From Berberis thunbergii (taxonomy: Eukaryota > Streptophyta > Magnoliopsida > Ranunculales > Berberidaceae): DNA of 64,000 nt. Where the stretch lies: assembly GCA_003290165.1 (NCBI GenBank), contig QNQO01000653.1:496001-560000 (forward strand). The letters run 5' to 3'. Shown piece after piece: positions 1 through 64,000 of the stretch. Each line of letters starts with the position of its first letter. Within the stretch, counting starts at the first letter, position 1. A model generated the notes under the pieces. The model made no database searches. It saw nothing but the letters and a program-made list of their open reading frames with translations, and was not told where the DNA came from. The translations under genes and the position numbers were made by a program.

Positions 1-69
1 TGGCTGGTTGGTAGCTCCCATGACAATAACATGAGCTTGTGATTTCAGTCCATCCATGACTTAAAGTCA

Positions 70-174
<105 letters not shown>

Positions 175-433
175 TTACCTATGCATTCAACAAATTCTTA
201 CTACTTTTCCAAGCAACCTTTTCCAAGCATACAAATAGCATTCAAACAGCATTCAACATACATTTGAGCAATTCAAGCATACGATTCAACATTCAGCATT
301 CAACATTTAATATTCAACATACATTTCAGCATTCAAGCATTTCATCATTTTAGCATTCAAGCAACATTCAACATTCAAATTAGCTACGGTTAAAGTTTAA
401 TTACTCATGTATTTAGGTGCGTATGGTTAAAGT

Positions 434-2630
434 TTAATTACTCACCCCGCTTGGCTGCGTCGCGGATCCCATTAGAGGTTGGATGTTTGTCATGAATGCT
501 CTAATTTCCTCCATATCAATGGACAACGTGTCTACCTTCTGATTGGTTGTCTCCAACTTTACTTTGGTTGTTTCCAGATTTGCTTTCGTTGTCTCCAGAT
601 TTGCTGTCGTTGTCTCCATATTCGCTTTCGTTGTCTCCAGATTTGCTTCAGTGGTTGCTAGCTTTTCCTTCGTAGCTGCGAGCTCTTGTGCAGTTGCATC
701 ATGAGCTGCAACCAGCTGTTGCTTAGTACGCTCATGTGATTCCACTAGTTAACGTACTTTGGCATTAGCTTCATCCCCCACTCTCTGAACGACCGCATTC
801 AATTGCTCATGATTTTGCCCATCTTCATTGCGGAGCATTTTTGGAGTGAAACCCCATACATCTTGGCCCTCCCTTGTCCATCCCCCCCCCCCCCCCCCCA
901 TCACATCTGTAAACGCCTCCTCCCTATTCATTCCCTCTCAGCCATCTGTTGGTTGTGTTAGTTGTTCCATTTGCTCCTAGATCAAAACAGATGCGCATAC
1001 CCATAAACCATAAATGATCAAATACATTTTATGATGGTTAACAACATTAGAACAACACGTTACCTAGGTACATTCATATAATTCCATAGAATATAACGTA
1101 CATATCTCCTTGCTGCTTCTGGCTGAGGGAATAATCCATCAGATAATGTGTAAGTTGCTTTGAACATTTGCATACGATCTGGTTCTTGTCCATTTGGGTT
1201 TTTTCTCTTTGGAATAATACAAATTACATTAAAAGAATATACATAAGGTAGTACATCTTCATGCATTAAGGGGTAATATATGAGCGGCATGGCACATAAC
1301 ATACATTTTATATAGAAAGCATTGGGAAAAAATTGCTACCTCTTCCTCCCATTTACATGCAAATGACATGGTTCCACATCGATGAATCATCTTCAATCGG
1401 GCGCGATTTGCTTTATTTTGTGCACTGACTTTCTGCATACAAACACAAATTCACAGTTACAATTCCTTTCAATCATATGAACTATGGTACTAGTAAAACT
1501 ACAGTACTTAACATATACACCTTAAAATTTTCGCTCCTCCAGTACTCTACAAGCTTCCGCCACTGAGCCTTATCCACCCCATCATCAGTGTGCTCATATT
1601 GTTGCTCAAGTGGTCGATCATACCTATGATATTCCCTGAACAAATAGTGCTTCCATTGTTTCCAACAATCGCAAGCTTTAGTTTGGACCCATCTCTGTCA
1701 AATTTTATAATAAAGTTTTTTTTAGTATAATATAATCACATGTCGATATATAAAAACACTAATTATCAAATTTGAAACAAAATCACTCGTCAAGATAGAC
1801 AAAGACCTTAGTTATCTCCGGACAGTTTTCGAATGAGAACTTTGCCTGTGACAAAAATGCAGGATTCCAATAATTATCAAGCTATGATACGTAATATAGA
1901 TATACGTTTTGGGAAAATGTGCTATGTCGTATATTATTAAACTTGCAAGACTATTACCGATATGATCTTCCAAATAGTTTCCTTCACATTTGGTGAAATC
2001 TTCGGCCATTTGCAAGGTAAAAGAGGCACCTTACTTTCATCCCGTGCGATAATACCTATTTCAGTGGATACTTTTGCCGCTGTCTTGCCGATAGGCTGTC
2101 CAAAGGCATTGCATTTCACCACCATCAATTTTGTATGGCTTGGGCCATCATATTGATGTGTACCCCTGCGTTTCTTATATCGTCGTACTGCAATTCCAAT
2201 AGCACCAAAGTTAAATAAGCTATATCTCATGAATATTACAAAAAAATTTGATTTCCTCAAACTATGTCATATCTGGAAAAAAAAAATTATACACTTGCGA
2301 TAAGTCAGCAAACATTACCTATACGAACAGCTTCCTCCCTATGCCTTGTAGATAGGCATCCATCCACACTCCTCTCTAGTTGTTGTTCCTTTTCATTCAT
2401 ATCATGGTCAGCAAGGTCTTGTTGATCATCAGATAGCGGCTGTCCCTCTCCAGCAATAGAGGGAGTAATAGTCTCAGGGACTACACTATCTGTTTGAGAT
2501 AGTTGAGACACATGCTGTGACCTTTCCTGACTTGATATAGCTTGTGAAGTAGAAGCATGCTATGAAAAGGTTGCTCTTCGAGAATGCAATTGTCCTCTTT
2601 GAGTTAGACGCTTCATCTCTAGATTTTTTT
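434..2630 (-). pseudogene. TNPA-like (Transposase_24, Ptta/En/Spm) gene, degraded
   Basis: Exon-like pieces on the minus strand match the plant En/Spm Transposase_24 type. The region near 2260-1940 encodes a basic RYKKRR start followed by a GQPIGKTAAKVSTEIG block; the region near 1600-1540 holds the block ending in WRKLVEYW-type sequence; near 1240-1130 is NGQEPDRMQMFKATYTLSDG; and the C-terminal part (745-434) is a coiled coil of LETTKAN-type heptads. In the family this protein binds the subterminal repeats and assists the transposase. Comparison with the second copy at 59544-61640 shows indels and an 18-C run at 882-899 (7 C in the other copy), which breaks or expands a glycine stretch. No continuous reading frame survives. 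Confidence 0.75.
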
Positions 2631-2876
2631 AACCTTTTATAACATTCAAGATTGCACATATTCATGCATAGAAAAAAATATAAGTTCAGAAAGCAACATC
2701 AAATTTATCGCAGCCATAGAGCCAAATAGATTGAACCACATATATTAAACCATTGAATACAATATAAGTACCAATCATATACTGTGCATATTGTAAAATA
2801 GCATTATAGTTGAGATGCAGAACTTGTGCTCATACTTTAAAATATGAATGACAACTTCATACTTTACTCTATGAAT

Positions 2877-2963
2877 TTAGAAGACCCAACTTGTTAACAC
2901 TCTATTACAACATCTTCATCACCATCCATATTATCAAACCTTCTAACAGGAACGGGGTCAGAA
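2877..2963 (-). pseudogene. DUF4216 C-terminal scrap of CACTA TNPD transposase
   Basis: About 85 bp matches the end of the DUF4216-containing transposase exon of the other copy (around 61890-61975) almost base for base: an acidic tail read from a CATCTTCATCACCATCC stretch on the plus strand. Homology stops abruptly at about 2962, which marks the deletion junction. Confidence 0.7.
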
Positions 2964-3130
2964 ATGCCTGTTACGACACCTTTTGCATGGACATTTTATC
3001 CTTCCATGAAAAGACGACAAATCAAAAGCATCATTAAGGAAGGTGTGGAGCCTTAGTTCATATTCGGTGTTGAGACGATTATGCTCAATCCAATTTTTTC
3101 CATGTTGGAATCTAACTTAGCCTGGATATA
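2964..3130 (-). pseudogene. Transposase-associated domain (TNPD N-terminal exon), fused remnant
   Basis: On the minus strand, about 45 codons read NWIEHNRLNTEYELRLHTFL and on through IKCPCKRCRNR to a TGA at the deletion junction. This is the Transpos_assoc domain found at the N terminus of CACTA TNP2/TNPD transposases (a W.. start and a CPCKxCRN zinc-ribbon-like signature). It abuts the DUF4216 tail at about 2962, so the transposase catalytic region (Transposase_21) and DUF4218 have been removed. No start codon is obvious, as expected for a fragment. Confidence 0.65.
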
Positions 3131-4076
3131 GTATAAAGATGAATTTATTAATTGACATTTATGAAAACCAAAAATTTATTCTTTTAAAAAGATAAAGTAA
3201 AACAAGTATATATTATACATTATCTTTTACGGCTATTCAAATTTGAAGCTTGCTCTTGTAAGGTTTTACAAACTCAATATGTTATTTATGTATGATGCTC
3301 TATCTCCCTAAAAGCCATGCAAATGGGGGATCAACCCAAATATATCAAACGAACCCAAAGTTCAAAATAAACGAAACAAGCAGGATACTGCACGCTTATG
3401 GCATATCTACCCATTGGCTAATAATTTATTATTCCACGCTTATGGCACGTCTCTCTCAAAGTAGTTGTATATATTCATTTTCGACTTCACATAAAAAGTA
3501 AGCAAGCCAAATGCAGAATAATTAGAAGTAAACGACAATTTGAAATCATTAACCCTAAGCGGGCTCAAGCATGAGCTTTATGTTATGTCTGATAAGTTGT
3601 TATTAGAGAACACCTTAGTTTCATGACAAGTTTGCTTGTCATGCAAGCTCCTTTTTATTATTTTGAATGCCCTAGTATGAAAAAAAAAATGCAAGAAAAG
3701 CAGGGCACTAACATGGTCAACAAAAGCAGTGCACTAACATGGTCAAAACAAAACCAATCTAATCAAGCATTTCACTATTGGTTGGTACACTTAAAATACA
3801 TCAAAAGTGTGGATGGTTTGACTTAATTCTACCATCCACATCTATTGCTATAGATGGTAAGAAGATTTAATAATTCATTAAATTCCACTTGAGCTCCATG
3901 AAAAAGTTTTGCTAAATTTGAACATGTAAGGAATTTTACAAGTGTATTTTGATTGTATGGAAGAAATTTTACAATCATACTATTACACTGAAAACTAAAG
4001 CTTGTGTACGTATATATGAAACAGACTTGGGAAGGTTTATACGTCTACCTTGAATTCCTAGAAGAGTTCTACTTCC
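3131..4076. other. AT-rich CACTA interior, no gene seen
   Basis: Lies between the TNPD N-terminal scrap and the subterminal array. Short open frames occur on both strands but none resembles a known protein. It is probably intron or 5' leader of the lost transposase gene. Confidence 0.4.
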
Positions 4077-4262
4077 ATCTTTAGACTAAAAGTCTGTGAG
4101 TTTGGAGTAGTATTAGTTGTTCGCCACTTTTACAGTTCAAAACAATATAAAAAATTTGCATCTTTAGACTAAAATTTGCAAAACAATATAAAGTCTGTGA
4201 GTCTATGAATTTTACTTCCATCTTTAGACTAAAATTTGCAAAACAATATAAACCTAAGTGAG
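4077..4262. repeat. Imperfect tandem repeat around CATCTTTAGACTAAAATTTG
   Basis: The phrase CATCTTTAGACTAAAA occurs three times within about 190 bp (near 4077, 4159 and 4219), with AACAATATAAA and AGTCTGTGAGT as linked sub-motifs. Units are about 65-80 bp and partly rearranged. Confidence 0.6.
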
Positions 4263-4334
4263 AGATTTGATTTTTACTCACCTTATTAGATCACAAAAAC
4301 CCCAAATTTCTCCCACCTTGAAGTTGAAGAAGAT

Positions 4335-4650
4335 GAAGAATGAGATGATCTTCCTGGATGCAGAAGGATTCCAGGCCCCTCAGCAGGTGATGCGGCGCGG
4401 GTTCTTCCTCTGAAAATCGAGGGTTCTTCCTTTGAAAATATGGTTCTTCCTCTCAGACCTTCTTCCTCTCACAGCTTCTTCCTCTGAAAATCGCGCATCT
4501 TCCTTGCAGAGCTTCTTCCTCTCAAAACACCGTGACGCAGGATGTCAAACCTTCGTCCTCTCAAAATCGCTCTTCCAAACCTTCTTCCTATCAGAATAGG
4601 GTTATTCTTCTCAATGATTCTTCCTCTCTCTGCTTCTTCCTCTGCAATAC
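4335..4650. repeat. CTTCTTCCTCT-rich minisatellite in CACTA 5' region
   Basis: About a dozen degenerate units of roughly 20-27 bp share the core TTCTTCCTCTgaAAATCG. On the transposase-coding (minus) strand this is a purine-rich GAGGAAGAA tract. It sits between the transposase gene remains and the subterminal array. Confidence 0.65.
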
Positions 4651-4739
4651 GCTCTTCACAAAACAAAAACAACGCGGGATTCCCAATTTTATTCGCGCCT
4701 AATAGGTTTTTATTTTGTGTATTTTTTTTATCGCTTAGG

Positions 4740-4815
4740 GATGGCAAAAACCGTAGCTAGGATTTGTAAATCTTAGCTACGGTTATTATACCGTGGCTAA
4801 GTAAAATTTTCGTCA
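4740..4815. repeat. Isolated CACTA subterminal hairpin unit
   Basis: The CGTAGCTAGG and TTAGCTACGGTTATTATACC motifs with TACCGTGGCTAAG form a palindromic unit of the same family as the main array at 6494-7350. It marks the inner limit of the right subterminal region. Confidence 0.55.
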
Positions 4816-5159
4816 ATATATTATTTTTTTCAAATATACACTTATGGACGACATAAAGTGTAGCAAAGTGTTTTTATTTGTAAATCCCAAACAAGTTTTT
4901 ACTCTATCAACCCCAAATTGATATTATATATATATGATTCAGGGGGCTACATAAGCAAAAAAATTATATGGATTTACAATCAAGGACAAACTAAAACTTA
5001 CAAATTTTGATTCAAGGTTTATACTATTAAAAAACAACAAATACGATTTTGGAAAGACAAATTCGGAGTGTCCATGCCTTTTCAATCAGAATAATTTTTT
5101 CTATTCGTCCAAATTCAAAGCGTCTTCAAGTTTTACAAAAATTAAACAATCTTTCGGCC

Positions 5160-5665
5160 TGAAAAAAATGAAGGATATGGGTAAGATGCAGGAGATGATC
5201 AAAAATAAAATGATACGAGTAAAAAAATGATATTAGTAAGATGAAGGATATGAGTTAAAAATTGACTTAAATGCATATCAAAGAGGATATGGGTAAGATG
5301 CAGGAGATGATCCAAAAAAAATTTATAAATCATTCTCATACCTGCAAGTGGCTTTTAACAAGGGCAATGCTAAGTCCTTTCACATTCATTAGTTGAAAGA
5401 CAAATTTGGGAGTTGATTCTGCAACAATCAAAGGAAAAAAAAATTTGATATAGAGTTAGTAATCCTTGATAATTGTTGAAATGCTCAATGAGCTTCTCCT
5501 CTGTTGTCTACCATGAAATCCCTACGATGAAGAACGTCTGCAAGTTTTATGAATATGAAACAATGTTTCGCCTTGCATAAAAACCAAGGCCTTTCAACTA
5601 GTAAAAAAGTGACTGGAAGGCGGTAAGAATATCAAAGAGAATATGGGTAAGATGCAGGGACGACT
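5160..5665. repeat. Dispersed GGATATGGGTAAGATGCAGG repeats
   Basis: GATATGGGTAAGATGCAGG occurs at about 5172, 5286 and 5640, twice followed by AGATGATC, within otherwise AT-rich CACTA interior. No coding potential was recognised. The following stretch to about 6300 is unremarkable apart from a purine-rich segment (5890-5960). Confidence 0.5.
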
Positions 5666-6452
5666 TATACCGTATCAAAGAAACTGTAGTTAAAAGAAAT
5701 TTTAAGGCTTCTCTTTCAAAAAAATTGTTACAAAGAACATTTCCCCTCGATGAGCCTCATTTGCTTAAGTCACGCAATGAAGTAACAACCACCATTATAT
5801 AAGGTAAAGAGAACATTCGACAAATGTATGCAATTTTAACATTCGACAAATGTTAGCCTTGTTTATGATTTACTAAACCTTATCTCTCACCTGAAGAATA
5901 AGACGCACGCAGGAGATGGCGGCGCTGGAGTGGGCGGAGGCGATAGAGAGTAGAGAATAAGGGACAGATAGTACCACCACGACACCACCGTCGCCCTCCT
6001 TATATCAAAGAGAAAATATGAGATCTATGATCTTTGATATCTCTTGCATCTAGGGAAAGGCGGCCGGGATGGGTGTCAAGTGAGAGTTTTATCCTGGATT
6101 TGGGTTTCTTCTCTGCTTCTGGGGTCTTCTCTGCCACGACGGACTTCTCCTCTGTAAAATTTAAATTTATATAGAGAGAGAGTTAATTGAAGGAGATTGG
6201 TTGAGTTGGTTTCACGCAGATCGGTGACATGGTTTGTTTTAGTGTGTTGGATTTAGCTATAGTTTTTAAGTGTTATTGACAGTTGCGACGAGGTTCTATT
6301 TTTGATAATTTTTTTTTAAATATTCTATTAGGGACGGTTTTTTGCCGTAGCTAATAAAATATTCTTTATAAAACTTAGCTATTTTTTTGATTTAGCTAAA
6401 TGTTTATATATATATATATATTTAAAAAAAAACCATTAGCTACATGTTTTTA

Positions 6453-6483
<31 letters not shown>

Positions 6484-6493
6484 TTTAAAAACA

Positions 6494-7350
6494 TTAGCTA
6501 CGGTATTCTACCGTGGCTAACCAAATTTATTTGTAAATCTTAGCCACGGCCCCTGTGCCGTCGCTACTTTGGTTTTTATATATTTCATTTTTTTTAAAAA
6601 CTATTAGCTACGGTATTCTACCGTGGCTAACCAAATTTTTTTGTAAACTTTAGCCATGGCCCCTGTGCCATCGCTACATTGATTTTTATATATTTCATTT
6701 TTTTAAACTATTAGCTACGGTATTCTACCGTGGCTAACCAAATTTTTTTGTAAACTTTAGCCACGGCCCCTGTGCCGTCGCTACATTGATTTTTATATAT
6801 TTCATTTATTTTTTAAAAACTATTAGTTACGGTATTCTACCGTGGCTAACCAAGTTTTTTTGTAAACTTTAGCCACGACCCCTGTGTTGTTGCTACTTTG
6901 GTTTTTATATATTTCATTAAAAAAAAACTATTAGCTACGGTATTCTACTGTGGCAAACCAAATTTTTTGTAAACTTTAGTCACGGCCCCTGTGCCGTCGC
7001 TACATTGATTTTTATATATTTCATTTTTTTTTAAAACTAGTAGCTACGGTATTCTACCGTGGCTAGCCAAATTTTTTTGTAAATCTTAGCCACGACCCCT
7101 GTGCAGTCATTACTATATCTTTAATTTTTTTTAAAAAACTATTAGCTACGGTATTCTACCGTGGCTAACCAAATTTTTTTGTAAATCTTAGCCACAGCCC
7201 CTGGGCCGTCGCTACTTTGGTTTTATATATATAATTTTTTTTAAAAACTATTAGCTACGGTATTTCTATCGTGGCTAACCAAATTTTTTTGTAGATTGTA
7301 GCGACGTCAAGTATACTGTCGCTAATAAGCGATCGATTTATGCCGTTGCA
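6494..7350. repeat. Right subterminal hairpin array of CACTA copy 1 (8 units of about 109 bp)
   Basis: Units start near 6494, 6604, 6711, 6823, 6931, 7040, 7142 and 7251, giving spacings of about 102-112 bp. Each unit contains TAGCTACGGTATTCTACCG followed by TGGCTAACC, then TTAGCCACGGCCCCTGTGCC and GTCGCTAC. The half-sites are inverted, so every unit can fold into two hairpins. In En/Spm elements such subterminal repeats are the binding sites of the TNPA-type protein; that role is inferred here from position. Confidence 0.85.
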
Positions 7351-7487
7351 AAATATTAAACGACAGTTTTTTTAATTTGTGTACTGAAACCGTATCAGAA
7401 ATAGTAGCGACGGTTTTATGCCGTCGCAAATCGTTTGAATAGCGTCGGTTTCTTAAAACCGTCACTAATTTCCGTAGCTAATAATGC

Positions 7488-7501
7488 TTTTTTTTGTAGT
7501 G
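7488..7501 (-). repeat. CACTA right terminal inverted repeat
   Basis: TTTTTTTTGTAGTG ends the element; the reverse complement CACTACAAAAAAAA matches the left terminus at 50573. The next three bases (TGA) would be the target duplication, but the left partner lies outside the window. Confidence 0.8.
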
Positions 7502-15480: not shown

Positions 15481-15520
15481 TTCGCCATCGCCTCTTCCTC
15501 TTCTTGCTTTGAAATCTCTT

Positions 15521-28656: not shown

Positions 28657-28664
28657 CTTTCTTT

Positions 28665-28669
<5 letters not shown>

Positions 28670-28696
<27 letters not shown>

Positions 28697-32040: not shown

Positions 32041-32123
32041 TCTTTCTCTCGTGTTTCACTTCCTGTTTTCTCTCAATAAGAGTTCTACAATTCTCAACTT
32101 CTCTAAATCAGGCCCCTGTGATG

Positions 32124-46275: not shown

Positions 46276-46277
46276 AA

Positions 46278-46345
46278 TTTTTTTTTTTTTTTAATAATTT
46301 TTTTTTATTATTATTATTATTATTAATTTTTTTTTTTTTTTTGCT
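46278..46345. repeat. T-rich/ATT microsatellite
   Basis: Poly-T, then TTATTATTATTATTATTA, then poly-T; it separates the hairpin array from the ankyrin fragment. Confidence 0.9.
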
Positions 46346-49754: not shown

Positions 49755-49830
49755 CTGCTCATCTTTCCTCAATGGCCTTCTTGTCACCAGCCCCATGAAG
49801 AATGACATTGTCATCCTTGGAGATAGTTAC
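49755..49830 (-). pseudogene. Chaperonin-60 (mitochondrial HSP60-type) single exon fragment
   Basis: A 76-bp minus-strand exon with canonical borders (TTTGCAG before, CAG|GTTTGT after) reads VTISKDDNVILHGAGDKKAI then EER. This matches the VT.SKDDT..LDGAGDKKxIEERCEQ block of group I chaperonins. A one-base deletion replaces the expected Cys-Glu-Gln codons with TGA GCA G. No other CPN60 exon was found nearby, so it is an isolated fragment next to the ankyrin piece. Confidence 0.8.
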
Positions 49831-50059
49831 CTGCAAATTCTGTCGCATGTTATGGCCTATTCTGCAGTGAAGTTAGGTCAACATGGAGAAGAAAAAAAAA
49901 ACTAGTTTCAAGAGTATAGCTTATTTTTTTTGCAAGTGCCAAGCATATCTAGTTCCACCTTGTGAGCTGGAAAAGATTAGACAAAGGCTTGTTAAAGAAT
50001 TAATGACTAGAAGAATACTAGCAACCAGCCTAATGATTCATCAGTCAAACATCAAATTA

Positions 50060-50470: not shown

Positions 50471-50589
50471 TGATAATGCATTTCTGAATTAAAAGAATTG
50501 ACAGACCACAAATACCTGTCCACCGCAATATACACTGGAATATTGAGCACTGCCTTGCCCATACAAAATTCCCACTACAAAAAAAATGG

Positions 50590-51275
50590 AAATCAGCGAC
50601 GGCTAAAAACCGTCGCTGATTGAGCCAAAACCGTCGCTAAAAGGATTCAGCGACGGCACAACAACCGTCGCTATCCCGTAGCTGCATTTATCGTCGCTAT
50701 TTTGATTCAGCGACGGCACAATAGCCGTAGCTAATTAGCCACGACATACAACCGTCGCTAAAGTGTAAACTACCCGTAGCTAACAGATTTTTTTTAAAAA
50801 AAATTTAATATTTTTTATATTAGCGACGGCAAAATACCGTCGCTAATTGATTTTTTTTTTAAATTTAACATTTATTTATTTTAGCGACGGCATTTTAGCC
50901 GTAGCTAACTGATTTTAAAAAAAAATTAAATTTTTTTTTATTTTAGCGACGGGAGTTTGGCCGTGGCTAACTGATTTTAAAAAAAAATATATAATTTTGT
51001 TTATTGTAGCGACGACCTTTTAGCCGTAGCTAACTGATTTTAAAAAAAAATTTAATTTTTTTTTATTTTAGTGACGGGAGTTTGGCCGTGGCTAACTGAT
51101 TTTAAAAAAAATATATAAATTTTTTTTTATTTTAGCGACGACCTTTTAGCCGAAGCTAACTGATTTTAAAAAAAAATTAAAATTTTTTTATTGTAGCGAC
51201 GGCAGTTTGGCCGTGGCTAACTGATTTAAAAAAAATTGTTTATTTTAGCGACGGCCTTTAAGCCGTGGCTAACAA
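50590..51275. repeat. Left subterminal hairpin array (about 62-bp period)
   Basis: TTAGCGACGGC...GCCGTsGCTAACTG alternates with A/T spacers (TTTTAAAAAAAAATT), with units near 50880, 50944, 51006, 51067, 51131, 51192 and 51246. The first 150 bp holds denser CAGCGACGGC/GCCGTCGCT hairpins. It is the counterpart of the array at 6494-7350 but with GCGACGG rather than GCTACGG. Confidence 0.85.
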
Positions 51276-51717
51276 AATAAAATTGAAAAATGATTTTTTT
51301 ATATTTAAATTATATTAATTTTAAAATTTAGCATATACTTTTTTTTGTCATTATATTAATTTTAAAATTTGGCAAATTATAAACATCTTAAACCTAAACA
51401 AAATTAAATTAATTTTCATATACTCAATAAATTGTCCATCACAAAAAAATACAATCCCAAATACTGTCAACCTCAAATTGAAATAACTACATAAAACAAA
51501 ATTGTGATCGTCTATGGGACATAAAACAAAATTTTTACATACAATAATTGCAGAGTTGCTGTCAACAAAATTCCTTGATAGTAATAAATGGTCTTGCAAG
51601 GAACAAAATTCCTTGATAGTAATAAATGCTCTCTAGTCGCAAAATACACAAGGAACAAAATTAGGCCCATATGATGACAGTGACAAAAGGCCCATAGCAA
51701 GCATTTATGCAACTTAC

Positions 51718-52681
51718 CATTGGTGTTGAAGAGCAAGAACAACACTGCTATGAACCAAATTACTGGACTGATTCCTACAACTTTGAAATCTTCTTCAAGT
51801 GATCTGTTGATGTATTTCTGAAAATCAAATTTATTCGCGTTTTGGGGGACCAAATGTGCCTGTTAATCACCAACAACATGTTTTACTCACTAAATCTATA
51901 AAATTCCTTGCTAAGTAACTCACTTTTACGAAGGATATGACTTACCATTATAAATTCATGTCTCAGAGTAAAATAATCGACCTTGACGACAGATCGAAAG
52001 AACTGTCTAAAGAAGCATGCCTGAAACAATAAGCAACATGCTGTTAGCTAGCTAGATTAATCATTCATGCTTATAATAATTGGACTTATTCATGAAGCAT
52101 GAAGCATGAAGCAGTCATGGCTATCCAATTTAAGAATGGTCTCCAATTTGTTGATTCACAAGTCAAACTCTGTCTTTTTCAATCTATTCGGAGCGGATTG
52201 CAACTTTTTTCAATAATAAATTAGGTGAGTTGTACACTTGATGCGTCGATAATTAAAGCTATATAAAATTAAGCAGACATTGTAGTCACCCTACCCAAAA
52301 TGAATCAAATTTAAACTAGATGTGTCTAATAATATACATCATTATACTTGGATACTTGGAACACATACATCATAAGGCACTATACATTCATATACTTTGC
52401 AGATACTTGGAACACATTCATATTTAAGTAGGCAAAATTTGTTATATCTTTACAATTCATTTATCTTATGGGATTGAATCAAATCAAGGCACTATACATC
52501 ATTATACTTTGCAGAATTTAATGGAAAATGCATAATAGTGTTGAATTCATAATCAGAGATAATATTTAACAAAAGAAAACATGGTTTGATTCTTACAATC
52601 CAAAGGAGAACGGGTGACTTGCTCCAGGAATTCAACTGCCTTCTCCGTTTGATGTGTCTCTAGCAAATCTAAACCTCTCCG
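51718..52681 (-). pseudogene. MLO-family gene fragment (three exons with introns) inside CACTA
   Basis: Exon a (52681-52597) reads PERFRFARDTS then, after a one-base frameshift, QLNSWSKSPVLLWI with a GTAAGA donor. Exon b (52020-51946), after TTTCAG, reads ACFFRQFFRSVVKVDYFTLR then HEFIM, with donor GTAAGT. Exon c (51860-51718) reads [36 protein letters not shown] and FLLFNTNG, with donor GTAAGT. These are the consecutive second-loop and adjacent TM blocks of plant MLO proteins, seven-TM powdery-mildew susceptibility factors. Splice borders are preserved; only the frameshift in exon a is disabling. The rest of the gene is absent. Confidence 0.9.
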
Positions 52682-52912
52682 GATTTGTAGCACAAATATA
52701 TTTTAGTACATCTTATCTATTGGAGTAATTCACACATTTATTTTACAATCCATTTGAGTAATTCACACATTTATTAATTAGTAGACATTATTGCATATGT
52801 GGCACTTTTTTTTTTCTATTCAAAACGAATTAATAACTCGACAATTTTGATAAATCTATCAATCTTTGAAACATTCAATTACCATGTGTATACTGATACT
52901 CCACTGTTCTTG

Positions 52913-53440
52913 TGTTAGGAACTAACCTGTGTTTGAATATGTTTCTTGCAGGAATTGATGATATCAAGCTATTCCAGACTAATTTGATCTGTCAGACAGT
53001 TGATATCTTGAAGAACAGAATCTTGCAAGCCACAAACAGAGTTGAGTTGCTGTTACAAAAGACTGACAATAACAGAGATTGCTTGAGAAGACAATAACAG
53101 AGATTGCTTGAGAAGAAGAATTTGTATTGACTGAACTTGTAGATTACAAAGAATAGAATTGAATTGAATCAGGCATGTTTCAAGATTGCCAGTCTCCACA
53201 GAGTAGAGCTCTTGTACAAATTGTTTATACTCAATCAATGAATATCTATTTCCCTTGCTAATGTCCTATTTATAGCAACAGATTGACTAACCTAACAGTA
53301 AAGATAACAGAGCACCTAACAGTAAAGATAACAGAGCACCTAACAGACTATTTTACAGAATGAAGCTTGCCAATCTTCACTTGTCTGTTGTATACTTCCT
53401 CCTTGAATAGGTAAACTTGATAGGAGGCTGAAGCCTAACA
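52913..53440 (-). mobile_element. Solo LTR (528 bp) with 5-bp target duplication
   Basis: Starts TGTTAGGAAC and ends AGCCTAACA, giving inverted ends TGTTAGG/CCTAACA. The direct repeat TCTTG flanks it (52908-52912 and 53441-53445). A TATA box GCTATAAATAGG on the minus strand at about 53265-53275 gives its likely direction. CTAACAGTAAAGATAACAGAGCAC is duplicated within it (53292-53345). It was inserted into the captured-gene region of the CACTA element. Confidence 0.85.
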
Positions 53441-53689
53441 TCTTGTTTCTTTTTCCTTTAATCTATATATAACTATCTTTCTTTTCCTTCCTCATTCCCT
53501 ATCATGCGAAGGTTGATTGTATATCTAGCTAGCTAACTGAGCACCATAATAAAGAAATTTACAAACAAACATATCCTTTGTGCACAGCGCAAGTGTTTAT
53601 TTAACTAAGGTTTTTACACAGCTTTTGAACAAAAGCCAATTGATTGTACAAGTACCAAAACACGAACCTTTTAAGCTAGCAATGTGTAG

Positions 53690-54365
53690 TGCATTGCAGT
53701 GCAGAAGGTGGCGAAAGCTCACACTGGACCGCGGTTTGGCTGGACTGCAGACACGCGTAACATTGCAGTCCAGGTGGTGAAAGCTCACACTGGACTGCGG
53801 TTTGGCTGTACAGTCCGCACTCTGCAGCACAGACAGCACTGTGGTCTGCGTAGACAGAGTGCGATGCGTGCTTCTGCTGTTCGTTTCAGGCGTAGCAGGG
53901 CGGAGATTGAAGTCTACTGGGAAACAGGTTTGGTTCGCTTGCAGGACCCCAAGACAAGGTGCGATGGTTTTCTAGCTTGGCAGCCAGAGTGCGATGCTGA
54001 CAGAGTCAGCATTCTGCGGTACGCGCTGTTACAACGCCAGTGTCTACATTGCTGTGATTCAGAGGTCGTGCGGATAAGGGAATGCGGCGTAGCGGAGCAG
54101 ACGCGTGTCACATTCCGCACTCTGCACACAGACAGCATTGTGGTCTGCTTAGACAGAGTTGCTTCTGCTGTACGTTTCAGGCGTAGCGGGGCGGAGATTT
54201 ACGTCTGCTGGGAGACAGATTTGGTTCGTTTGCAGGACCCCAAGACAGGGTGCGATGAATTTTCAGCTTGGCAGCCAGAATACGCTGCTGACAGAGTCAG
54301 CGTTCTGCTGTACGCACTGTTACAGCGTCGGTTTTTTGGCTTCTACATCGCTGCAACTAAGAGTT
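53690..54365. repeat. GC-richer block of internal direct repeats
   Basis: Two tandem copies of about 290 bp (about 53830-54060 and 54120-54350) share TTTCAGGCGTAGCrGGGCGG, GGAGATTkAyGTCTrCTGGG, TTGCAGGACCCCAAGACA and GCTTGGCAGCCAGA. A shorter repeat GCGAAAGCTCACACTGGACyGCGG lies just before (53705 and 53775). Composition is visibly more GC-rich than the flanks. No protein family recognised on either strand. Confidence 0.75.
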
Positions 54366-54532
54366 CGTGAGGATAAGGTGGGTGCTGTCCAAGTTCCTGG
54401 GTGCTGGTTATTTGGGATGAGTTCGTCTGGTGCTTTAAATATGCAATGGACCTCACGACAAGTTTTGCTTTTAATTTTTTCTTTGTGTTTTATACGGGTA
54501 AAGTCGTCACGTACCCCCGTAGCGGTTGTAAG

Positions 54533-54610
54533 GAACACATATACTACACGCACACATATACTACACGAACACATATAGCGCACGAACACATATACTACAC
54601 GCACACAGAA
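54533..54610. repeat. ACACATATACTACACGC minisatellite
   Basis: Four to five units of about 18 bp, AACACATATACTACACGm. Confidence 0.85.
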
Positions 54611-54659
54611 ATAGAAATACGCATTCATGCAATCAAATGAAGGAATGCACAAGTGTGAA

Positions 54660-55360
54660 CAAAGAACACAATATAAAGCTTCTTTAATTTATTTTAAATT
54701 TTATTAACTATTGAAAGTAGTAAGAGATGGGAGATTATGTATAAACATGCCTATCTAGTGTACCTTCACAATACATATTTTATATGAAAAGCGCCATAAA
54801 TATTGTGAAGTTTGTTCGGCTGCAGCTGATTGAAAATATTTTGTAACAAACAAATAAAAGAATTAGTCATCAAAATATTTCCAGGCCAGCCAAGACCGGC
54901 ATCCACAATTGACCCCAAATATACTAAATCCATATATTTGGTTGCTTTGGTCCTGTTAATTGACTTTAAATGAATGGAATTTATGTATATAAAAAATTAA
55001 AATTAAATCTATATTTTACAATAACCATTCTGAAATTTTTGAACCATTTATTTGGAAGTTTGGAAAAAAAAAAACTCCAAAGTACCCCCTTTGTCTTGTA
55101 ATAAACAATAATCATCCACTCTTTTCCTAAAACAATGTCATTTTTTTCTCACACTCCTTCTATCATCTTCTTCCCCAAATCTCCACCAAACAGTTTCTGT
55201 AAATCATAATATCATCTTCTTTCCCTTCACCAAAAAACTTTTACATCATAATATTAGGTTGTTCAAACTTTGTATATCATAATATCTAGCTTTTGTATTT
55301 ACTAGAACCTTTAATCTGAGCTTAATAAACAAAAAATCGTTAAAAAAAAAACTTGCAAAT
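54660..55360. other. AT-rich CACTA interior, nothing firm
   Basis: A minus-strand stretch near 54935-54830 reads GSIVDAGLGWPGNILMTNSF, which may be an exon of some captured gene, but I cannot name it. Confidence 0.25.
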
Positions 55361-55372
55361 GAGATTAGTACC

Positions 55373-55452
55373 TTGTGTGGAGTCTTGGGCACCTTCCTGG
55401 GGGGTTTGGGAGGCGTCGCGGCCTCACAAGAAGCCCCAGAATCATGACCTAG
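55373..55452 (-). pseudogene. Possible FIZZY-RELATED/CCS52 exon-1 end captured in CACTA
   Basis: On the minus strand GHDSGASCEAATPPK then PPRKVPKTPHK is followed by AAG|GTACTA, a donor-like border. Plant FZR/CCS52 proteins (APC/C activators) have a PRKVPRSPYK block immediately before an exon end and the WD40 region. The match is short (about 11 residues) and the bases upstream are out of frame, so the call is tentative; any Lys/Pro-rich protein could mimic it. Confidence 0.35.
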
Positions 55453-55484
55453 AACCGAAGGCGCTTACGGGGAACCAGTGTACA

Positions 55485-55810
55485 GCCGCAGAATAACTGC
55501 ATCCACGCAGCCACAGAATATCAAAAACTGCATCCACGCAGCCGCAGAATATCAAAAACCCCAACCACGCAGCAAGTCAAGCCGCAGCACTAGCATCGCA
55601 GTTGAACACAGCATCGCAGCAGTCCATGTCATCGCAGCCAGAACACAACATCGCAGCAGCAGCAGTCCATCAAATCGCAGACAGCAGTCAGAACACAGCA
55701 TCGCAGCCAGAACACAGCATCGATGCAGCAGCAGTCCATGTGAACACAGCCAGAACACAGCATCACAGCAGTCCATGTCATCGCAGCTTCGGACCGCAGT
55801 AAACGCAGCA
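55485..55810. repeat. CAGAACACAGCATCGCAG-type tandem repeats
   Basis: An initial pair GCATCCACGCAGCCgCAGAATATC (55500 and 55530) is followed by about ten copies of GCATCGCAGC and AGTCCATGTCATCGCAG phrases. Frames on both strands stay open through it because of the repeat composition, not because of a gene. Confidence 0.8.
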
Positions 55811-55829
55811 CCCATCCAAACAGAGAACA

Positions 55830-57060
55830 CTCTGTTTTGCGACAGACTGCCCAGTCCAGTGCGCACCCACCGTGCTGCTGCTCGTCCCCCTAATTGCAAT
55901 CATGTTTTGCAGTTCCTTGCAGTCCAAAAACAGAGATATTCCCAGTTTAAAAAGCATACCAAGCCAATTAGATTTGCATTAGATAACTACAACATACCAA
56001 GCACATTCCAGTTTTTAATCCCTTATGTTCATCACATAAGTGTGCCAGAATCATCCTTCATGACCATGATAAAGCGACTCTAACTGACTTGCATAATAAA
56101 CATACATAATAATAGTTTAGAAGGTCTCTCTATACATAATAAACATACAGATAATTAACAAGGTTCCTGGTGACTATACCCTGTGGGCCCGACCCATTAT
56201 GCCACCTATTTCTTAAAGACTTTTGAAACACTTTTGTATCCATATGATATTTCATTCATGTTTTGACAGACTCACAGTCATTAGTACACCTATAGAGGTT
56301 TTGAAATACAGAAATCACATCCCAAGAAATCAAGTGTCATTTCATAAAATGCAAAGTGGAAAAATACCAATTTATATTAACGGTCCTTCATCATTAATTC
56401 AAATACCACATTATGGGGTTTAACACGGCAGATATTTGATAGATGTGATTTTAATGGGAAAGAGATCACCTCTCCCAAAACATCAATGCATTTGAAACCT
56501 CCATGTCAATGTGACAGAGTGATCAAAATGCAAAATAATTCTAAAGTGCGAGGCCAAACCCCAGTGCAATTATGAGAACTGAGAGCTGATAAAATATCAC
56601 ATATTTTCTGTAGGTTAAATGTGCAAATCTTTTCACGGAAAATTACTTCTTCATATTGGTGAAAACGTATTCAAGGGATAATGAAGACAATTTCCATTTT
56701 TATCACTATAATAACAGCATTTGCATCTATAAAGTGACTGGCTGAAACAGATAATAAAGCACTGAACATGCGAAAACGATGTTGCACGCAGTATTATTTG
56801 TATAACATTGTAAAATTTTAAGGTATATGAAAACCAACCCATTCACACCTCATTCTCTACTGTCCCGTTTGGAAGCAATTTCACAACTTCATGTAGTTAA
56901 ATGCATCTTAAGCCATAGAAAAAAGAATTCTCTAGTTGTAAATCCAAATACTTTTCTCAATCAAATGCATAAAACTGTCCCAATTGCCAAAGACAAAGTA
57001 ACTAAACATGTTAAAGAGAAATTTAAAACTAGAGATTCAAGTTTTAGAATACATACAGGT
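55830..57060. other. CACTA interior, no gene recognised
   Basis: Open frame fragments only; nothing with family signatures. Confidence 0.3.
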
Positions 57061-57066
57061 CATATA

Positions 57067-57275
57067 TCACCTTTTAAACCAATTTGGCATAGCGAGATTT
57101 TCTGCAGGTTTAGACTCTTTGACAACAGGGGAAGGGGCTGGAACTGGAACTGGAACAGCAGGCTCGGGTGCAGATTCCTCAAACTTGATGGGTTCCGAGA
57201 TAAGCTGTAGGCCATTCAAATACTTGATTTCATCTTGAAGGAAGGGAATGGAATTCTGATCTGTAGTCTCATCTC
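57067..57275 (-). pseudogene. Unidentified terminal exon captured in CACTA
   Basis: After a TATTGGCAG acceptor the minus strand reads DETTDQNSIPFLQDEIKYL, then SEPIKFEESAPEP, a Pro/Val repeat (AVPVPVPAPSP) and NLAMPNWFKR before TGA. An open frame of about 70 codons with an acceptor, an acidic/proline-rich linker and a natural-looking basic end looks like the last exon of a host gene. Family not recognised. Confidence 0.4.
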
Positions 57276-57827
57276 CTGCCAATAATGATTAAAGAAATTT
57301 TCAAACATACAGTGCAATACATCTAAGGATCAATTCCCCGCATGTCTATTTATCAGAAGCTACAAGTATACAAAGTAATCAACAATGGATTACCCCAAAT
57401 TCCTACAAGTATACAAACTAATCAACAAGAACATCAAATTCTACTCGCATTGAAAAATATTAAACAATATCAGAATTATCTCTTTCTCTTTCTTTTTCAT
57501 TTTTTTAAGGGCAAACCAATTATCGAAAGCCATGGAGGCTAGCAATTGAAAGGCAAGACTATAATATACTTGAAAAAAGTTCTAATTTGATATTTTCATA
57601 AAAATTTCTGGCCTATTTCATTACCATATGCATATATCTGATCTACTTTCAGATAGCATAAAGCATACTTGCACACAAAAAACACCAATCATCAGCAATT
57701 GTTTATCAACCACCGAAGAAAATCCTGACGTGAGTCACGTGACCACTGAGCAAAATTGACAACCAGCAAGTTGATTGGGTGAGTAGAGACAACAATCCAG
57801 AAGACATTCATAACAAAAAGCACATAC

Positions 57828-57940
57828 CAGATCTACCACAATGATTATCCAATTGAGGTTTCCTTCGGCGCTCATTGTGTCCTGCAAGACGTTTACGGCA
57901 GCTGTGCTTACCATCATCAAATTCAGCCAACAGATGGAAC
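57828..57940 (-). pseudogene. SBP-box (SPL) transcription factor exon captured in CACTA
   Basis: A 113-bp minus-strand exon with AATCCAG acceptor and CTG|GTATGT donor reads [20 protein letters not shown] then [18 protein letters not shown]. This is the second half of the SBP DNA-binding domain, including the second zinc site (HSC...H) and the bipartite nuclear signal KR...RRRK. No stop or frameshift is present. The first-half SBP exon (CQVxGC...) was not found to the right, so it is an isolated exon, with normal intron phases preserved. Confidence 0.9.
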
Positions 57941-57949
57941 CTGGATTAA

Positions 57950-58840
57950 GAAATAAAAAAATCTATTATATATCGCCATAGCAAAATCCACTTTGATTAA
58001 ATTAAACTCCAAACTAGTTGCAGCCAAAAGACACTATTCGAGAAAGACTATAGCCATAGATATCGTGTTTCAGAATAAACATGATGCTTATTCAAACACT
58101 CTAAGCTGACCCTAATTAAGGTCAAGTACAAGAAATCAGAAGTCTCTCTATAACCAATACTAAAAGTAGCCTAAATGCTACATGTGCATAAATTATTTTC
58201 AGTGGTCCGTGAAGAACCTAATGGTAAAATTCCCTCCTTATAGTATCCAGTCATTACAGGTTACAATAGATCTAAACATTGAAAGATAAACAATTGAAAA
58301 TTCAGTGTTAATTTTCATAATAATTTTCTTTTTATCAGCTACACGGAGAATGAGATCGAATGCATTTCATTAGGAAAAACAGAGCGAGTGAGGGTCTCGC
58401 AATTTAAGTTTTGGCAAATACCCGTTTCTAGTAATTTTTTTCTCCTTAAGAGATTTAATAGATTTAAATAAATAAAAAAAGTGAAAATGAAAATAGTGCA
58501 CAATGAAGAAATATCAATCAAGATACAACTAGTACTTCGATTTACTGGGACTAGGATATGAAGAAATTAACACGAAAAAGATTTCATAGTTAATGCAAGA
58601 ATAACCATAAGAATAGCCATCTTTTACTTGTGCTAAAAAAAATGCAATACAAGCTGATGAAATATACTAAACCCTCTCATGTTTACCTTCTCTGTTCTAT
58701 TGTCTCCCTTCTTCTATTTTCTCCCATTGCCCTGTCCAACTTAGGTCGCACTAAACCTAGTACTAGCTTTAGTATACGTAAAATAAATAAATTAATTAAT
58801 AAATAAATAAAATAATAATAATAAAATTTCCATGAGTAAA
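57950..58840. other. CACTA interior between SBP and CTF7 fragments
   Basis: Intron-like AT-rich sequence with poly-A/TAAA runs; no exon recognised. Confidence 0.35.
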
Positions 58841-58850
58841 GAAGTGCAAC

Positions 58851-59150
58851 CTTATTCCTTTGAGATGGAGGATCGCTGTCTAACACCAAAATGATGTGAG
58901 AACCATCAATGGGATTCTCTTTATTTAATCTCTCATTGCACCAACCCTATAAATGAAGAACACAGTCACAGACAGCAAGATGATAAACTCAATGACAATG
59001 ATAAAATTGAGATATAAATGTTTTCAAGTGAAAGACCTTGAATGGAATACCAAGGATGTAGTTCTTGTGAAAGTCCTTATGAACCTTCTCATCCATTTCA
59101 TCTCCACGAGCAAACTTCATGCCACATATAGAACCACACATGCAAAGTTA
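58851..59150 (-). pseudogene. CTF7/ESCO cohesion acetyltransferase fragment (two exons) captured in CACTA
   Basis: The first exon piece (ending 59037) reads [20 protein letters not shown] then [10 protein letters not shown], with an AAG|GTCTTT donor. The second (58946-58851), after TTTATAG, reads GWCNERLNKENPIDGSHIIL then VLDSDPPSQRNK, with an AAG|GTTGC donor. The order Cys-Gly...His-x3-His, GIPFKGW.NERV and LDSDP..QR.K is that of the zf-C2H2_3 finger and linker of plant Eco1/CTF7, which acetylates cohesin during S phase. The acetyltransferase domain itself is missing. No stop lies within the two exons; the 5' limit near 59150 is uncertain. Confidence 0.75.
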
Positions 59151-59215
59151 AAACACATACAGAACACATGCTGTAAAGATTCAGATTTAGATGGCACTAC
59201 TCAAATTTAGACACG

Positions 59216-59540
59216 GTAATAAAAACCAACCCAAAACGACTTAAAGAGTTGGGGTGTCTACGAGGGAGCTCCACTAGCTCCCTGATCTGAGCCATCTGCT
59301 TTCTCACGTTCATTTACTATGCATTCAGCAAATTGTTACTACTTTTCCAAGCAACCTTTTACAAGCATACAAATAGCATTCAAGCAGCATTCAGCATACA
59401 TTTACGCAATTGAAGCATACGATTCAACATACATTTCAGCATTCAAGTATTTCATCACTTTAGCATTCAATCAGCATTCATCATTCAAATTAGCTATGGT
59501 TAAAGTTTAATTATTCATGTATTTAGGTCCGTATGGTTAA
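59216..59540. other. 3' flank of the TNPA-like gene with CATTCA-type repeats
   Basis: Collinear with 90-430 of CACTA copy 1. It contains many GCATTCA/ACATTCAA repeats, and the shared homology to copy 1 begins here, right next to the CTF7 fragment. Confidence 0.7.
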
Positions 59541-59543
59541 AGT

Positions 59544-61640
59544 TTAATTACTCACCCTGCTTGGCTGCGTCGCGGATCCCATTAGAGGTTGCATGTTTGA
59601 CATGAATGCTCTAAATGCCTCCATATCATTGGTCAACGTGTCTACCTTCCGATTGGTTATCTCCAGATTTGCTGTCATTGTCTCCAACTTTGCTGTCGTT
59701 GTTTCCAGCTTTGCTTCAGTGGCTGCTAGCTTCTCCTTCGTAGCTACTAGCTCTTGTGCAGTTGCATCATGCGCTGAAACCAGCTGTTGCTTAGTAAGCT
59801 CATGTGATTGCACTAGTTCACGTACTTTGGCATTAGCTTCATCCCCCACTGCATTGCGGAGCATTGTTCGAGTGACGCCAACCCCATACATCTTGGCCCT
59901 CCCATGTCCATCCCCCCCATCACATCTCTAAACGCCTCCTCCCTATTCATTCCCTCTTGGCCATCTGTTGGCTGTGTGAGTTGTTCCATTTGCGACTACA
60001 TCAAAACAGATGCGCATACCCATAAACCATAAATGATCAAATACAGTTTATGATGGTTAACAACATTGAAACAACACATTAACTAGGTACATTCATATAA
60101 TTCCATAGAATATAACGTACATATCTCTTGCTGCTTCAGGCTGAGGAATAATCCATCAGATAATGTGTAAGTTGCTTTGAACATTTGCATTCGATCTGGT
60201 TCTTGTCCATTTGGGGTTTTTTCTCTCTGGAATAATACAAATTACATTAAAAGAATATACATAAGCTAGTACATCTACATGCATTAAGGGGTAATATATG
60301 AGCGACATGGCACACAACATACATTATATATAGAAATCATTGGGAAAAAAATTGCTACCTCTTCCTCCCATTTACGTGCAAATGACATGGTTCCACATCG
60401 ATGAATCATCTTTAATCGGGCGCGATTTGATTTATTTTGTGCACTGACTTTCTGCATACAAACACAAATTCACAGTTACAATTCTTTTCAATCATATGAA
60501 CTATCGTACTAGTTAAACTACAAGTACTTAACATATACACCTTAAAATTTTCGCTCCTCCAGTACTGTACAAGCATCCGCCACTGAGCCTTATCCACCCC
60601 ATCATCAGTGTGTTCATATTGTTGCTCAAGTGGTCGATCATAACCTATGATATGCTCTGAACAATTGTGTTTCCATTGTTTCCAACAATCGCAAGCTTTA
60701 GTAAGGACCCATCTCTGTCAAATTTTATAATAAAGTTTTTTTTAGTATAATATAATCAATGACGATATATAGAAACACTAATTATCAAATTTTAAACACT
60801 CGTCAAGATAGACAAATACCTTAGTTTTTGTCCGTACAGTTTTCGAATGAGAACTTTGCCTGTGGACAAAAACGTAGGATTCCAATAATTATCAAGCTAT
60901 GATAAGTAATATAGAAATACGATTTGGGGAAATGTGCTATGTCGTATATATTAAACTTGCAAGACTATTACCGATATTAGCTTCCAAATAGTGTCCTTCA
61001 CATCTGGTGATATCTTCGGCCATTTGCAAGGTGAAAGAGGCACCTTACTTCCATCCCGTGCTATTATACCAATTTCAGTGGATACTTTTGCTGCTGTCTT
61101 GCCGATAGGCTGTCCAAAGGCATTGCATTTCACCACCATCAATTTTATATGGTTTGGGCCTTCATATTGATGCATACCCCTGCGTTTCTTATATCGTTGT
61201 ACTGCAATTCCAATAGCACCCAAAGTGAAATAAGCTATATATCATGAATATTAAAAAAAAATCGATTTCCTCAAGCTATGTCATATCTGGAAGAAAAAAA
61301 ATTTTACACTTGCGATAAGTCAGCAAACATTACCTATACGAACAACTTCATCCCTATGCTTGTAGATAGGCGTCCATCCGCATTCGTCTCTAGTTGTTGT
61401 TCAATTTCATTCATATCATGGTCAGCAAGTTTCTTGTTGATCTTCAGATAGCGGCTGTCCCTCTTCCAGCAATAGAGGGAGTAATAGTCTCAGGGACTAC
61501 AGTATCTGTTTGAGATAGTTGAGACACATGCTGTGACCTTTCCTGACTTGATATAGCTTGTGAAGTAGAAGCATGTTGTGATAAGGTTGCTTTTCGAGAT
61601 TGCAATTGTCCTCTTTGAGTTAGACGCCTCATCTCTATAT
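59544..61640 (-). pseudogene. TNPA-like (Transposase_24) gene of the large CACTA element
   Basis: Minus-strand exon blocks in order: MRRLTQRGQLQSRKATLSQ (61632 onward); RYKKRRGMHQYEGPNHIKL, CNAFGQPIGKTAAKVSTEIG and CKWPKISPDVKDTIW (61223-60951); SFENCTDKN (about 60840); DKAQWRMLVQYWRSENFKV (60597-60540); SNRARLKMIHRCGTMSFA-like (about 60420-60360); TPNGQEPDRMQMFKATYTLS (about 60220); and a coiled-coil C terminus (LAATEAKLETTTAKLET) to 59544. This is the full Transposase_24 gene architecture. It is better preserved than copy 1, but small indels make intactness doubtful without an alignment. Confidence 0.75.
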
Positions 61641-61904
61641 TATTTTAACCTGTTATAACATTCAAGATTGTACATATTCATGCATAGAAAAAATATAAGT
61701 TCAGAAAGCAACCTCATATGTATCACAGCCATAGAGCCAAATAGATTGAACCACATATATTAAACCATTGAATAAAATATAAGTATCAATCATATACTGT
61801 GCATATTGTAAAATAACATTAAAGTTGAGATGCACAACATGTTCATCACCATCCATATTATCAAACTTCATACATTACTCTATGAACTTAGAAGACCCAA
61901 CTTG

Positions 61905-64000
61905 CTAACACTCTATTACAACATCTTCATCACCATCCATATTATCAAACCTTCTAACAGGAACGGGCTCAGATTCAACGATTTCTTCTTTAGTGGATGT
62001 AGACGACTCTCCATTGACATCATAAAATTCTCTAGGCTTTATCTTAACAGGGACGTGCCACTCAGTTTTAACAGGATCTTGTACATAAAAGACTTGCTTC
62101 GCTTGTGAAACGAGAATGTAGGGTTCATCCGTACATAGTAGTCGATTAAGTTTCACAATTGTGAATCCTAACTCGTCTACCTGAATGCCGCGCCTATCAA
62201 CCCAATCACATCTAAATAGGACTACATGTCGCCCTCCTCCATAATCCAACTCTGTGATGTCAGTCAACACGCCATAGTACGTCACATCTTTGGTTGTGGG
62301 GAATTGTCATTAACCGTTCCATAATTAATGCAACTTGCCGAGAGTACAACTCCACTGTTCTGGGTTTTACTTCTCCTATCTGCACACTGCGTGCGATACC
62401 TACACCCATTAATAAGGTATTTTTTAAACTTGCGAACAACCTTCGAAGGACCCCACGACAAGTGTTGAACATCATTAGGTTCATCAGAACTGCTGACCTG
62501 TTCATTAGAAGCCAAAGAATGCACAACCTTAGTATTTGGTTAACATGAATTTACAATTTAGTAGAGGCAAAACTCACAGCATCATGAAACCATTGAGGAA
62601 ACTCAGAGTTATGAATCCGATCAATGTCTATTTGTCGTTTGTTCGGGTATCGTTCTCGGAGGGCTTCCTTATGTTCTCTACAAAAGGTTAAGATGCATTA
62701 GAGATACTAAGGGTGCTACAAAGTCGAGATTCAAGTGGAGAGGAGATAGTAGACGTGCATACATTACATGTGTGTATATTTCAGATGTGTTAAATAACAC
62801 CCATCTATGCATTTGTACCCACGTAACTTCGTCAATATTCATAAACTCTGCCTTCCCAATGCCACGCCCGGGCGATGAGAAAATGTTGAGGAAGGATCGT
62901 GGTGCTTGCACATAATTATCATCATTTCGCACTGGCCGGTTAGACCTTGTCTCGACATCGTTAAAATATCTTGAACAAAATGTCAAACATTCTTCAGCCA
63001 GGTATCCTTCAGCAATTGATCCCTCAGGACGACTTCGATTGCGCACATATGACTTCAACGTGTGAAGGTACCTATGAGAAATAATTTTCCATGATATATT
63101 AGTAGTTATTTTAATACATACTACCTAACATTATGACACATGGTATGGGGATTTACCTCTCAATAGGATACATCCAGCGATAGTGAACAGGTCCTGCCAA
63201 TTTAGCCTCACTTGCCAAGTGTATGGACAAGTGAACCATTATATCAAAGAAAGCTGGGGGGAAAATCCTCTCAAGATTACAAAGTACTAGAGGTATATGA
63301 CTTTCTAACTGCTCATAGCAATTAACTGTCCTAGTTTTGGAGCATAATTCACGAAAATACGTACTTAGCTCAATCAAAACTGTACTAACTTCTTTGGGAA
63401 GAATTTTGCGAATTGCTATTGGCAGTAGCTGTTGCATTAATATATGGCAATCATGACTCTTCATTCCTGATATTTTACGTTCTTTCACACAAACGCATTG
63501 GGATAAGTTACTCGAATAGCCATCTGGCACTTTAACCTTGGAGAGCACTGTGCAGAGTAGCTTTTTCTCTTCCGCGGTCAAGGAGTAACACGCCTTAGGC
63601 AAATGAACCTTACTAGAAGTAGTTTCTGGATGCAGGGCATGCCTAATGTCCAGTTCTTGCAGGTCCAAGCGGGCATTCAACGTGTCCTTGGTTTTCCCTT
63701 CCATGTTTAGTAGTGTTCCAACTAAACTCTCGCAAATGTTCTTCGCGATATGCATCACGTCTAGGTTATGACGTATTAAGAGATGTTCCCAATAAGGCAA
63801 TGAAAAGAAATACTTTTCTTCTTCCACCCTATTACTCCTTCACAATCCCTTTTGCGCTTAGAGCCAACTACTTGAGCATGGTGTTTCCCAAACGTTATGT
63901 CACCTTACTTGCCTCGGCTAGCAATTGTTGGCCAGTGAAGTTAGGGGGAGGAGATCGTAGTTCAATTTGTCCATCAAATGATTCTACTTGACGTCTATAT
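61905..64000 (-). pseudogene. TNPD/TNP2 transposase gene, C-terminal half (DUF4218 and DUF4216)
   Basis: From right to left on the minus strand: PPPNFTGQQLLAEASKV followed by a probable frameshift (63990-63840); YFFSLPYWEHLLIRHNLDVM then HIAKNICESLVGTLL, opening DUF4218 (63827-63153), which runs to AGPVHYRWMYPIER; SYVRNRSRPEGSIAEGYLAE with CLTFCSRYFND (63058-62678); KTQNSGVVLSASC (about 62340); and DUF4216, YYGVLTDITELDYGGGRHVV with LFRCDWVD (62285-61905). The catalytic Transposase_21 part lies beyond 64000. Apparent one-base shifts near 63830 and 63915 suggest it is not fully functional. Confidence 0.8.

Follow-up and report, generated by a model that had tools for sequence, protein, structure and literature searches.

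Transposons of the CACTA (En/Spm) superfamily with pieces of host genes inside them are known from several plants, and a probable further case, described here, occupies the right-hand end of a 64,000-nucleotide stretch of Berberis thunbergii DNA (assembly GCA_003290165.1, contig QNQO01000653.1, positions 496,001 to 560,000 of the forward strand; this whole stretch is called the window). In soybean, Tgm-Express1 combines exonic and intronic sequence from five unrelated host genes, and chimeric spliced transcripts arise from the gene in which it sits (PMC1947982). A 20.5-kb CACTA element has also been reported from soybean (PMC2613891), 140 CACTA-mediated capture events from wheat chromosome 3B (PMC4290129), Pack-CACTA elements with coding DNA from several loci from maize (PMC8903248), and Tpn1 elements with captured host sequence inside them from Ipomoea nil (PMC5105172; cited in PMC8195511). 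Multi-gene CACTA capture with chimeric splicing is thus already known in print, and the element described here adds another case. Work on the Tpn1 family was reportedly also carried out by Kawasaki and Nitasaka in 2004.

The Berberis element resembles Tgm-Express1 in being a CACTA element with intron-containing pieces of several unrelated genes. It differs in that transposase genes remain and that it is known from sequence alone, whereas Tgm-Express1 is an element of 5.7 kb in intron 2 of the expressed F3H gene, the promoter of which drives the chimeras. Members of the Tpn1 family likewise exchange their interior for captured host sequence and keep their ends; those that do so are reported as non-autonomous (PMC5105172), whereas the captured pieces here have decayed transposase genes next to them. 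Grapevine Cactavine-5 also carries a host gene piece downstream of its transposase gene, but that piece stems from one gene (pentatricopeptide repeat type) in opposite orientation, compared with four genes on the transposase strand in the present case (PMC2528002). Pack-CACTA and other Pack-TYPE elements enclose coding sequence between CACTA ends, in some cases drawn from more than one locus, and are non-autonomous by definition, whereas transposase domains are present here (PMC8903248, PMC13317346). The CACTA elements of Chenopodium share the combination of accessory domains (TAD, DUF4218, DUF4216) with gene fragments, which lie in the 5′ region there and 3′ of the transposase genes here (PMC8978399). 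Literature searches for capture by CACTA elements returned no paper on the subject by title for CDC48 and no paper for MLO genes.

The last ~13.4 kb of the window are read, with high confidence, as part of a large plant transposon of the CACTA (En/Spm) type, namely its 3′ side; the element is probably defective and holds at least four captured host-gene fragments. Fragments of CDC48, of CTF7/ESCO, of an SBP-box gene and of MLO would have been taken up over past cycles between a TNPA-like gene and the 3′ subterminal repeats (Table 1). The case is one of clear multi-gene CACTA transduplication, and the presence of two sibling copies in the window gives a hint of the sequence of events: CDC48 would have come first, and CTF7, SBP and MLO would have followed 3′ of it. 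For annotation, it carries the warning that the MLO, SBP, CTF7 and CDC48 matches in this region are not genes. An earlier note on this DNA had proposed the capture of at least three unrelated host genes, and this is well supported; CDC48, the fragment of which it had overlooked, brings the number to four.

Table 1. Positions of features in the window (E, expectation value; LTR, long terminal repeat).
Feature	Position	Strand	Evidence
CACTA end with its subterminal repeats; 3′ terminus in the sense of the transposase genes	50573..51306	+	
MLO exon e3	51718..51859	-	Pfam Mlo profile 249-295, E 4.3e-17
MLO exon e2	51946..52020	-	Pfam Mlo jointly with e3, E 2.5e-32
MLO exon e1, 5′-truncated and frameshifted	52598..52690	-	3′ half with e2, Mlo profile 208-248, E 7.7e-16
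Terminal exon, ends in stop, in phase with SBP exon	57067..57275	-	
SBP-box exon	57828..57940	-	Pfam and PDB
CTF7/ESCO exon b	58851..58946	-	PDB ESCO1/ESCO2 alignments spanning both exons
CTF7/ESCO exon a, 5′-truncated	59037..59147	-	Pfam zf-C2H2_3 E 2.2e-6, PDB
CDC48 fragment, one-base gap relative to sibling copy	59238..59307	-	PDB CDC48 homolog A, E 5.5e-6
Core common to main element and sibling (sibling 98-2962)	59238..61973	-	
DUF4216 part of transposase region	61905..62306	-	Pfam E 7e-24
DUF4218 part of transposase region, intron-split, frame broken just upstream	62678..63839	-	Pfam
Internally deleted CACTA sibling; CDC48 fragment at 1-168 rearranged	1..7501	-	
Probable solo LTR, 528 bp, TG...CA, TCTTG on both flanks	52913..53440	.	

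The CACTA-type end at 50573 opens with CACTACAAAAAAAATGG and is followed by ~0.7 kb of subterminal repeats, a feature of the superfamily. The motif GCGACGG occurs nine times in the window, and eight of these copies lie within 50596-51254; tandem repeat arrays cover 50774-51236, inside the subterminal zone. The opening sequence, the clustering of the motif and the arrays bear out the left terminus that had been placed at 50573. A terminus consensus with up to two mismatches matched 12 sites in the window (mean of 4 in shuffled sequence); the consensus alone is weak evidence, and the subterminal repeats weigh more. The left flank of 50573 reads TCC. One terminus of the main element lies inside the window: no convincing second, inward-facing CACTA end was found in 50573-64000 by exact search for TGTAGTG and by a looser scan. 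The exact motif was present there as a single copy (53685) without a T-run, and the looser scan added just 51061 and 51186, both within the repeat array. The 5′ end of the element would be expected some kb past 64000, by estimate 6-8 kb if the layout of the sibling is taken as a guide, in a form like TTTTTTTGTAGTG followed by TCC.

The placement of transposase genes towards position 64000 on the minus strand was corroborated by Pfam matches to DUF4216 and DUF4218, the latter at 63153-63839 (E 1.8e-26) with a continuation at 62678-63124 (E 5e-20). The two domains together would mark a TNP2-type transposase gene. The DUF4218 open reading frame (ORF) has 1384 relatives at E ≤0.001 among 1525 candidates; many of these relatives carry PF02992, and an organism is named for 17 of the 120 relatives listed, each time a plant. 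The frame upstream of this ORF appears broken (three frames were read), for which reason the main element is probably defective. An ORF encoding a coiled coil (59544-59927) lies inside the core and is TNPA-like, a name given to it for its position. The designation multi-gene Pack-CACTA in the earlier note was kept for its first part, a CACTA element with pieces of several genes. It was not kept in the strict sense, in which the transposase gene is missing: here transposase domains are present in a broken frame. The host fragments were found together with one CACTA end in the window. Since strict Pack-CACTA elements are non-autonomous, the term “CACTA element with transduplications” is to be preferred.

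Captured DNA was searched for in 51300-59237 by submitting to Pfam, from the ORFs of at least 38 codons, 14 of the 45 on the minus strand and four on the plus strand as a whole, together with exon peptides; further captured exons may be present in this range. The SBP-box exon, previously proposed at the same position, was upheld by Pfam (E 2.2e-10, profile positions 46-74 of 75) and by solved SPL chains in the PDB (best E 8.7e-14). For MLO, exons had been assigned to 51718-52681; exons e2 and e3 and the 3′ half of e1 stood up in Pfam, and the 5′ half of e1, for which Pfam gave no match, did not. This 5′ half reads in another frame than the 3′ half, neither half matched Pfam on its own, and the 5′ half is only a putative piece of MLO. 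No true match to MLO was obtained among the solved structures in the PDB.

The CTF7/ESCO exons, earlier placed at 58851-59150, were recovered through the ESCO zinc finger, the Pfam score of which (27.8 bits) is barely over the cut-off of 27 and falls to 18 bits once the nine leading residues are removed, and through PDB alignments that run over the splice from exon a to exon b (ESCO1, E 8.6e-7; ESCO2, E 8.1e-5). The same PDB search also gave weak zinc-finger matches, and exon b gave no Pfam match, either alone or as its whole ORF. CDC48 is best seen in the sibling element, in which positions 168-1 encode two pieces of CDC48 homolog A (residues 187-219, E 2.4e-16, and 309-328, E 2.1e-8) with ~90 residues absent between them; Pfam returned no match for these two short peptides. 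In the main copy, 20 residues were aligned, corresponding to the first of the two sibling pieces.

As had been claimed, the captured exons cover only parts of their genes (the MLO, SBP and CTF7 pieces are truncated), and all identified fragments lie on the transposase strand. The shared orientation alone is weak evidence, with a chance of 1/8 to 1/16 for four or five fragments. The retention of splice borders and introns was likewise verified: 11 of the 14 borders of seven exons show AG or GT, two are truncated 5′ borders (MLO e1 and CTF7 a), and one is a stop codon. Capture probably took place at the DNA level, because the fragments keep their introns.

The exon at 57067-57275 gave no Pfam match, no hit at E ≤10 against short proteins (two candidates), and none at E ≤1 with a padded query aimed at longer proteins (12 candidates). 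Its phase fit to the SBP exon has a one-in-three chance, and it may belong to the same gene. A possible FZR exon at 55366-55437 (minus strand), proposed in the earlier note, found no support: its 24-residue peptide had no PDB match up to E 10 and its ORF no Pfam match. A putative likeness to FZR/CDC20 proteins makes it a weak lead.

The sibling element, which the earlier note had also overlooked, ends at 7501 in a terminus of the same kind as that at 50573, facing the opposite way. Its core (98-2962) is 88.75% identical to 59238-61973 with gaps counted, and the Kimura two-parameter distance between the copies is 0.063 (2721 sites, gap columns excluded). A Transpos_assoc domain (2961-3116, E 2.5e-9) directly adjoins the core, 4.4 kb from the sibling end, and for this reason the sibling appears to have arisen by internal deletion; the other sibling ORFs tried in Pfam gave sub-threshold noise only. 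The block common to both copies ends within CDC48, after which the sibling continues in CDC48 and the main copy continues towards CTF7. As the block stops inside that fragment, stepwise capture on the 3′ side is suggested, with CDC48 first: CDC48 would have been captured in the common ancestor, and the 3′ side of the main copy would later have been replaced by CTF7, SBP and MLO DNA. In one published model (Catoni 2019, summarised in PMC13317346), adjacent elements whose ends carry complementary deletions become joined with host DNA enclosed between them; this model would fit such a replacement, as would other repair routes.

Several points weigh against the reading as one large element with captured fragments. 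Neither the right end nor the duplicated target site lies within the window, and the limits of a single element are to that extent unproven; the catalytic transposase domain also lies beyond it, DUF4216 and DUF4218 being within. Stepwise capture is deduced from two copies, and deletion followed by insertion would look alike. The identity of CTF7 depends on modest scores and that of CDC48 in the main copy on the 20 aligned residues, and capture itself was read from the window alone. The regions 53690-54380 and 55480-55900 are GC-rich and internally repeated; their ORFs had no Pfam match, and the stretches themselves showed no likeness to the left flank. They could be other nested elements. These unexplained repeats, together with two loose Helitron 5′-like motifs at 54727 and 53555, would suit an origin in which another element (a Helitron, a Mutator-like element (MULE) or a smaller Pack-type element) captured the exons and then inserted into the CACTA element. 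This origin is considered very unlikely: CDC48 adjoins the common core in both copies, a simple scan of 50573-59237 found no Helitron 3′ end with hairpin and CTRRT, and a search of 51250-59400 for inverted repeats with a lower limit of 22 nt gave seven, with arms of 22-32 nt that are only 71-82% complementary. Neither the 3′ hairpin with CTRR that defines Helitrons nor the long terminal inverted repeats of Pack-MULEs were found in the scanned ranges. Slightly less credible still is that the terminus at 50573 belongs to a short element and that the DNA further right is a mosaic of its own, of host or transposon origin. The position of the right end beyond the window would be compatible with this, but no convincing partner end exists within the window, and both the sibling core and the transposase genes follow in correct order and orientation.

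Given a large CACTA element with captured fragments, the fragments are most likely passengers: they would be mostly passive and at best would supply alternative exons to transcripts that are non-coding or prone to decay. That transcripts of the element splice them into chimeric RNAs of the Tgm-Express1 kind, and that the host genes are affected to some degree, is judged unlikely, though not negligibly so. The published splicing of sense CACTA exons into chimeric transcripts (PMC1947982), the common strand and the retained borders speak for it, as does a donor-like GTGAGT that closes the coiled-coil ORF in both copies. When 13 ordered exon pairs were checked, seven were in frame and six shifted it; three of the former join exons of one fragment (CTF7 a to b, MLO e2 to e3, and SBP to the exon ending at 57275), and among the ten pairs between fragments the four in frame all lead from CTF7 to MLO. 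The six others, the frameshifts in the MLO and CDC48 pieces and a stop-bearing exon ahead of MLO argue against chimeric products. Simple antisense action is not predicted, because transcription that starts at the transposase promoter would read the captured pieces in the sense of their donor genes. The functional proposals of the earlier note (a chimera, or antisense or small RNA) accordingly look weak as judged from these frames and strands, and the element would gain in importance only through transcription and splicing of the exons, if these were demonstrated. The least probable proposal, given little credence here, is that the family has a capture-prone zone 3′ of the TNPA-like gene, with stepwise addition of exons on the same strand and with TNPA transcripts that use captured exons as 3′ terminal exons by way of the kept donor.

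The candidate solo LTR, also overlooked before, has the ends TGTTAGG...CCTAACA; no second copy was found in the window, and it was probably inserted after capture. An Rfam scan of the window yielded no match at the gathering threshold. The sequence at 45892-46280 looks like a third CACTA end, though a diverged one (CACTGCACCAAAAACCCC), and contains AGCAACGG/GCCACGG motifs; no partner for it was found in the window within three mismatches. Just left of the element, 49762-49872 (minus strand) resembles a chaperonin (HSP60) exon: the best PDB match has an E of only 0.17, 16 of the 17 matches are named chaperonin or HSP60 and one glomalin, and a part of the exon had no Pfam match. Ankyrin-repeat ORFs are present on the minus strand in 46456-48181, of which 47753-48181 is strong and 46456-46851 is below the cut-off. 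Retrotransposon ORFs were seen at 27369-32055 (minus strand; copia-like from reading the ORFs) and at 15520-19918 (gypsy-like from reading the ORFs), the latter between two 479-bp repeats that are 98.5% identical.

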